Source: Muricea muricata
Taxonomy: Eukaryota > Cnidaria > Anthozoa > Malacalcyonacea > Plexauridae
Reading direction: 5' to 3'
Assembly (NCBI GenBank): GCA_963855995.1
Contig: OY979718.1
Span: 1,015,501-1,079,500 of the forward strand
Length of the DNA: 64,000 nt
Both the position numbers and the translations under genes were made by a program. Positions 32,909 to 33,243 of this stretch are shown in pieces (position 1 is the stretch's first letter; the number at the start of each line of letters is the position of its first letter). Below the pieces are notes generated by a model that did not search any database, had not been told where the DNA came from, and worked only from the letters and a program-made list of their open reading frames with translations.

Positions 32909-33032
32909 AATAGAGATTAATGAATATAAAAAATATATCCACTGTTTCCAAGTCATACAAATAGAGTGCTCAATACCGAAGTAGAGCGAAATAGATAGAT
33001 AGATAAATAGATAAAACAACTTTGAGTTACTT

Positions 33033-33100
33033 CATAGATTTTATTTACCACAAATTTGTTTCGTATAGTAGGCAAAAGCCTACTACACTCGTCAGGTAAA
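33033..33100 (-). ncRNA. Hammerhead ribozyme copy, probably inactive
   Basis: Mirror copy of the ribozyme at 33141-33210, read on the minus strand, with CTGACGA, the same long stem II and GAAA. The base at the cleavage position is G in this copy ('atttgtggtaaa'), whereas the ribozyme needs A, C or U there, so self-cleavage should be blocked or very weak. Confidence 0.65.
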
Positions 33101-33140
33101 ATCGCAACTGGAGCCTATGTGCGCACATAGGCTCCAGTTG

Positions 33141-33210
33141 CGATTTTACCTGACGAGTGTAGTAGGCTTTTGCCTACTATACGAAACAAATTTGTAGTAA
33201 ATAAAATCTA
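33141..33210 (+). ncRNA. Hammerhead ribozyme, type I, short stem III
   Basis: Core CTGACGA at 33150-33156, then an 11-bp stem II (33157-33167 with 33172-33182, loop TTTT), GAAA at 33183-33186, a stem III made of a self-complementary 'acaaatttgt' (33186-33195), and cleavage position 17 = A at 33196. Stem I pairs 33145-33149 with 33197-33201, and an outer stem pairs 33142-33144 with 33206-33208. All conserved core bases fit. Such tiny stem III hammerheads are known from Penelope-like elements and retrozymes and act as dimers. Confidence 0.75.
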
Positions 33211-33243
33211 TGAAGTAACTCAAAGTGGTTTTATCTATTTATC

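Follow-up and report, generated by a model that had tools for sequence, protein, structure and literature searches.

Two hammerhead ribozymes were identified head to head within the window, meaning the whole analysed stretch of 64,000 nucleotides from Muricea muricata, and the near-perfect palindrome that had been predicted for them was found to consist of two arms of 132 nt each, which are 97% complementary and joined with a spacer of 0 nt (Table 1). The arms disagree at four of the 132 positions, two of which (33049/33196 and 33018/33227) locate to the non-repetitive part, where the original prediction of two mismatches holds, and two more to the TATC/TATA microsatellite ends, by which the full-length count exceeds it. 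The assignment of A as cleavage base at position 33196 of the plus strand and of G at the mirror position (33049, read on the minus strand) was correct, whereas the (TA)n arrays claimed for both sides adjoin only the right arm directly; the left arm is first followed by a tail of about 80 nt, which carries a hairpin, and then by (TA)n.

Table 1. Features of the palindrome and of the neighbouring retrozyme-family monomer (window coordinates; PLE, Penelope-like element)
Feature	Position	Strand	Remarks
Left (TA)n array	32822..32907	.	sequence
Putative PLE tail past the left arm	32908..32990	-	same tail in other family-A copies, motif, hairpin fold
UUCG hairpin inside the left tail	32968-32987	-	predicted fold
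TTGAGCACTCT motif inside the left tail	from 32963	-	reads AGAGTGCTCAA on +
Left arm, putative PLE family A 3' end	32991..33122	-	reads outward (leftward)
Left hammerhead	33041..33103	-	core CTGACGA from 33095; cleavage position 33049 is G, predicted inactive
Right arm, putative PLE family A 3' end	33123..33254	+	reads outward (rightward)
Right hammerhead	33142..33204	+	stems I, II and III of 5, 11 and 3-4 bp, respectively; cleavage predicted after A33196
(TA)n array entered directly by the right arm	33244..33429	.	no tail
(TA)n array preceding the retrozyme monomer	34241..34354	.	
Partial retrozyme-family monomer	34377..34574	+	starts TTGAGCGCTCT; type I core at 34516 with C34548 as predicted cleavage base
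(TA)n array following the retrozyme monomer	34575..34688	.	

Further features were noted in the window. An MITE-like element with long terminal inverted repeats (33430-34240; arms of 298 nt, 95% complementary) is inserted in the (TA)n array, with the palindrome on one side and the retrozyme on the other. A minus-strand fragment at 2976-4012 possesses a terminal inverted repeat of 51 nt (98%) and a CTGATGATG...GATGAAAC stretch at 3091; it presumably derives from a Penelope/Poseidon-type element with a GIY-YIG-like motif, and a Pfam search with it returned no match. Two minus-strand ORFs were recorded in addition, one at 42952-43806 with a cysteine pattern at its end, which we take to resemble a TGF-beta-type ligand, and one at 54094-54513 with FG-rich repeats, presumably reminiscent of a nucleoporin.

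Hammerhead cores and cleavage positions

Under the NUH rule, position 17 of a hammerhead may be A, C or U, and G is expected to forbid cleavage. When core, three stems and position 17 were considered, the right copy was found to fit a type I hammerhead, while the left copy has G at position 17; hence the right copy is predicted to cleave and the left copy is predicted to be inactive. A pattern describing the core and stems I, II and III matched the window three times (the palindrome pair and the core at 34516), as compared to two matches when 100 Markov shuffles of the 64 kb were taken together. Rfam scans revealed no gathering-level match in the whole window and no hammerhead match in 32900-33300; with 33140-33215 alone, the right hammerhead scored 19.0 bits against RF00163 (E 0.012), which is below the Hammerhead_1 gathering score of 34 bits. 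Low-scoring Rfam matches of the palindrome to unrelated families were judged to be due to chance. The single-strand minimum-energy fold includes the 11-bp stem II, but its pairing around the core is not exactly that of a hammerhead.

Covariation was assessed with an alignment of eight PLE-type hammerheads from the own genome, comprising seven distinct rows, in which 99.3% of the cells pair and both-sided changes occur in seven of the 20 pairs. Five measures were compared with 500 shuffles; on four of them no shuffle equalled the alignment, and on the fifth (further pair types) 286 did. The covariation supports the hammerhead fold and suggests the ribozyme to be a constrained RNA. Among the PLE-type copies in the loci read, position 17 is A in 39, T in 34, C in one and G in one, and at the 51 exact family-A sites of the genome the cleavage base is A in 48, T in two and G in one, the latter being the left arm of the window. 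This G is a private substitution, so that the disabled partner noted in the original prediction is not part of the design of the arrangement.

A putative Penelope-like family and its inverted arrangement

Searching the own genome (453 Mb, 74 contigs) with the palindrome revealed many copies and frequent pairs in opposite orientation (40 scored of 645 candidates). For family A, to which the arms were assigned, 20 stretches were fetched from this genome, and a near-complete single unit of about 2.36 kb in L028 was used as reference, in which a single ORF precedes the hammerhead and a short 3' region. In all 12 two-armed elements the arms point outward; six of them possess an outward-reading ORF on both strands, 11 at least part of a GIY-YIG-like C-terminus (the exception being L011) and six RT-like motifs (FDVVDFYPSI and/or Y.DD, which we take to be RT motifs). 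Counted from the 3' end the arms retain 118 to 2279 bp, each pair having its own combination of lengths, with the window arms being the shortest equal pair (118/118 versus the L028 reference). The junctions of 13 pairs comprise an overlap of 1-9 bp in eight and filler in five.

In L015, a hammerhead and tail reside directly upstream of a full 5' end, which corresponds to the pLTR arrangement; besides L015, a repeated terminal region, inverted or direct, as expected for a PLE with pLTRs, was found among the 51 sites, and the tail at one end that is optional in PLEs was likewise present. Outward arms, RT- and GIY-YIG-like motifs and the pLTR arrangement render the element Penelope-like by architecture. 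Database searches with the family-A ORF yielded no Pfam match at E up to 10, and of two PDB searches one returned nothing and the other only response regulators (E 0.18-0.21). As Pfam and PDB were thus uninformative, the PLE assignment is based on motifs, architecture and the 64-65% identity of the family-A ORF to the ORFs of two other families (65% to family B). The family-B ORF matched RVT_1 in Pfam with E 0.015, below the cut-off, and a second PLE-like ORF, in L024, matched GIY-YIG with E 0.0079, also below the cut-off; hhalign aligned the latter with the GIY-YIG-like stretch of family A (E 0.015, with a probability of 3%). Taken together, the palindrome arm looks like the 3' end of a family-A PLE. 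L024 carries two family-A arms in direct orientation (864-980 and 4121-4237), 3.26 kb apart and with matching tails, and the other PLE-like ORF (2503-3723) locates between them.

The inverted pairing, which had initially been considered unusual, turned out to be the rule for family A. Among the 51 exact sites genome-wide, 34 make up 17 head-to-head neighbour pairs, and the genome-wide arm search, proposed earlier as a check, identified this orientation as dominant within 10 kb (17 head-to-head versus two direct and no tail-to-tail neighbours). Patterns that test for two cores, and not for whole hammerheads, detected head-to-head pairs at 25 places with a gap of 5-35 bp and at 11 with a gap of 36-66 bp, merging into 34 loci, one of which is the window palindrome, while the reversed control pattern was found at 0 places genome-wide. 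Based on the neighbour census and these core-pair loci, the inverted pair is the usual form of the element, and the same head-to-head habit was observed for family B in its 20 stretches read.

Two tight pairs, L010 and L077, are heterotypic, each joining arms from different families. Over 105 nt from the core the arms of L010 are 82% identical with 14 gap columns and those of L077 84% identical with 20 gap columns. Seven tight pairs of the homotypic kind show 91-96% identity and 0-10 gap columns over the same length, a comparison that does not include L060 and L062, which the arm-identity script left unmatched. Unlike most homotypic pairs, both heterotypic pairs carry tails on both arms. Some junctions are shared: L059 and L061 have one common junction in mirror orientation, which is also that of the left half (B side) of L010; the inner pair at C5:5309965 is identical to that at C1:102439380; and two couples (C1:31273715/C1:102633729 and C1:114211764/C3:16174514) differ by one base. 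Of the junction strings, taken one per locus, 1 in 34 recurs exactly. The family-A minipalindromes read (window and L078) differ from each other in their junctions, and the twelve inner arm ends of the family-B minipalindromes L057-L062 locate to the hammerhead or to its immediate upstream side, at a distance of 88-110 bp from the 3' end. The shared minipalindrome junctions may reflect either a common hot spot or a mobile minipalindrome.

Tails, (TA)n arrays and the neighbouring retrozyme

Tails were counted with a strict pattern in 41 stretches, comprising the window and 40 loci. Of the 28 pairs from families A and B that matched this pattern, 24 have exactly one tail, three have both and one has none, whereby the family-B count is biased, as the tail was part of the B query and several of the B loci were picked as close pairs. 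The single pair scored as tailless (L019) carries a truncated tail; the strict pattern missed L027 and the B arm of L010, neither of which was counted as a pair, and L015, L022 and L024 hold inverted remains whose outer ends do not both lie inside the stretch read. For family A, 14 pairs were classed (13 of the 17 exact pairs and L027, with four exact pairs remaining unclassed), 12 being one-tailed, L012 having both tails and L019 a partial one. If each arm picked its start freely at 50%, at least 12 one-tailed pairs out of 14 would be expected with a chance of 0.006; owing to this excess the two starts look coordinated. Arms are cut off at differing points and mostly adjoin (TA)n arrays: of the 69 arms with enough sequence, 61 have (TA)6+ no further than 180 bp past the hammerhead, versus 17 of 1663 background windows.

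The third hammerhead of the window, which the original prediction does not mention, lies about 1.3 kb downstream of the palindrome, is of the canonical type I and belongs to a retrozyme family, of which the window holds a single partial monomer. The family consists of small tandem units with a canonical hammerhead, tandem copies being present at six of the 20 loci read (L039, L043, L048, L052, L055 and L056), and 16 of these 20 loci have (TA)6+ beside them. The palindrome itself was ruled out as a retrozyme, as it is inverted instead of a direct tandem and its longer copies contain an ORF.

Within the retrozyme unit a hairpin module was identified that is close to the PLE tail and closer still to the PLE 5' leader, with local scores of 29 (tail) and 38 (5' leader) versus background maxima of 23 and 25, respectively, so that 0 of 1752 background strand-windows reached the score in either case. 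Over the whole 110-125 nt the PLE-retrozyme comparison is weak, given that its score was reached by two (family A) and eight (family B) of 2000 shuffles and that random genomic 110-mers scored up to 29 versus 26 observed. A pattern for the module occurs at 259 places genome-wide, with 0 for the reversed control, and nearly all of the matches listed represent two forms, the PLE-tail type and the retrozyme type. In the tail hairpin 55 of 56 cells pair and two both-sided changes were found, a modest covariation as 16 of 500 shuffles were as good. PLEs are discussed as likely but unproven movers of retrozymes in the accessible parts of two reports (PMC7229834, PMC7761336). The hairpin and the (TA)n target common to PLE and retrozyme support the idea that retrozymes may be mobilized by PLEs.

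Insertion model and comparison with known systems

The palindrome probably represents one severely 5'-truncated head-to-head insertion of a family-A PLE at a (TA)n array. What the sequence shows is the orientation of the pairs, their vicinity to (TA)n, the tail on one arm, the unequal truncation points, the two-family pairs and the PLE-like architecture, whereas we infer the endonuclease step, the two separate primings and ribozyme activity. Initially, the PLE endonuclease would open the (TA)n array, and both target strands would then prime reverse transcription of PLE RNA. Here, one cDNA would start at a distal site, with the tail being kept, and the other at a proximal site immediately in front of the tail hairpin. 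Having included the hammerhead, which belongs to the PLE 3' end, the two cDNAs would halt about 27 nt upstream of its core and would be joined via a 2-nt CG overlap. As to the G of the left arm, it may be a later substitution or may have been inherited from the template. Similar insertions elsewhere in the genome hint that such PLEs copy one DNA per cut target strand.

Several other origins have to be weighed against this insertion. As palindromes are a known library artefact and the evidence is assembly sequence, a fold-back sequencing or assembly artefact has to be considered; it is, however, barely credible, since the flanks are not mirrored (tail and (TA)n to the left, (TA)n and a different transposon to the right), the arms disagree at two non-repeat sites and two cores lie head to head at 34 loci with a reversed-pattern control of 0, which bears out the real divergence assumed in the original prediction. 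Hardly more plausible is a DNA transposon or MITE with terminal inverted repeats whose ends hold a hammerhead by chance: the arms do resemble such repeats and adjoin TA, but their inner ends vary between pairs instead of forming a fixed repeat, the outer ends are asymmetric with a tail on one arm, and the ORF, which is RT/GIY-YIG-like, is doubled in both orientations in six of 12 elements. That the ribozyme-only minipalindrome is a mobile non-autonomous unit copied whole between loci is unlikely, although not to the same degree; it would explain the mirrored junction common to L059, L061 and the left half of L010, the identity of C5:5309965 and C1:102439380, the two further couples one base apart, and the inner ends of six family-B minipalindromes at 88-110 bp from the 3' end. 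Against it, only 1 of 34 junction strings recurs exactly, the window and L078 differ, and a common stop site near the hammerhead would also repeat junctions.

Self-priming, in which the end of a cDNA or of an antisense template snaps back and the same molecule is copied into an inverted dimer, is somewhat less improbable than a mobile minipalindrome but still doubtful. The idea was put forward for palindromes at the inverted junctions of Adineta vaga Penelope elements, as the accessible part of that report explains (PMC3846280), and it agrees with the near-identical arms of some elements (no mismatch in 364 positions in L009, one in 1193 in L012) as well as with the window arms, which are equal and spacerless and resemble a copied end. 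Yet self-priming predicts the same outer end on both arms, whereas the tail is confined to one arm in 24 of 28 pairs; the arms of two tight pairs come from different families, and it can be reasoned that a zero-nucleotide loop would need further processing. The one-arm tails and the pairs from two families thus favour two separate primings, and double priming fits the data well ahead of self-priming, short of proof. Reading the arms as two cDNAs is limited by the equal arm ends of the window (118/118), which are unexpected for two independent stops, and the common or near-common junctions of a few tight pairs speak against it. As both heterotypic pairs are two-tailed, they may have arisen otherwise, e.g., by later rearrangement. 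The two mechanisms could not be told apart by comparing the arms of one element with those of others, the arms of some pairs (the window and L027) diverging as much as different elements do.

Inverted ends, tails and hammerheads have all been published for PLEs before. In 2014, Cervera and de la Pena reportedly described minimal type I hammerheads in PLEs and Terminons. The arms share the type I fold in the PLE terminal region with these, as far as the accessible parts of the literature describe them; published PLE hammerheads are usually without helix III there, whereas stem III here has 3-4 bp and stem II 11 bp (PMC6155905, PMC7761336). Closest to the present arrangement is Adineta vaga Penelope, for which the accessible text reports head-to-head inverted ends with palindromes at the inverted junction, an optional short tail at one inverted end and simple AT-rich targets; its main text, as far as accessible, does not contain the word hammerhead and gives 8-10 bp target duplications for some copies, while here (TA)n insertions, outer-end hammerheads, and ribozyme-only and two-family dimers were observed (PMC3846280). 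For PAc (Poseidon of Anolis carolinensis), likewise a hammerhead-bearing PLE with an AT-rich target, the purified protein was reported to cut and extend both strands in vitro; reverse transcription begins internally, at two sites that flank the tail, similar to the two starts considered here, and insertion in vitro was found to be independent of hammerhead cleavage, with further integration steps yet to be validated (PMC11167929). PAc differs in that its ORF starts within the hammerhead and reverse transcription in an AC-rich stem-loop (PMC11167929), whereas in the present elements the hammerhead comes after the ORF on its 3' side and the ends locate to a UUCG-type hairpin. The monomer at 34377-34574 resembles metazoan retrozymes, as described in the accessible part of PMC7229834, by its canonical type I hammerhead and the small direct tandem repeats at several loci of its family, and differs from them by the hairpin module and (TA)n neighbourhood in common with co-resident PLEs. 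Ribozyme-only PLE palindromes, mixed-family pairs, the one-tail rule and the common hairpin were not found in the literature searched, which is not a proof of absence.

As a tentative generalization, for which the odds are slightly less than even, PLE integration may be a coordinated double event, in which one cDNA per strand of a cut (TA)n target is primed, with a proximal and a distal start around a conserved RNA hairpin, possibly from two RNAs, and both are joined head to head, with retrozymes that have the same hairpin and target being mobilized by the PLE machinery. The mode of PLE integration is unsettled, and to this question one genome supplies 34 head-to-head core loci, two mixed pairs and a one-tail habit; the hairpin common to PLE and retrozyme in the same genome bears on the question of what moves animal retrozymes. 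Both questions are directly testable with purified PLE protein and short RNAs.
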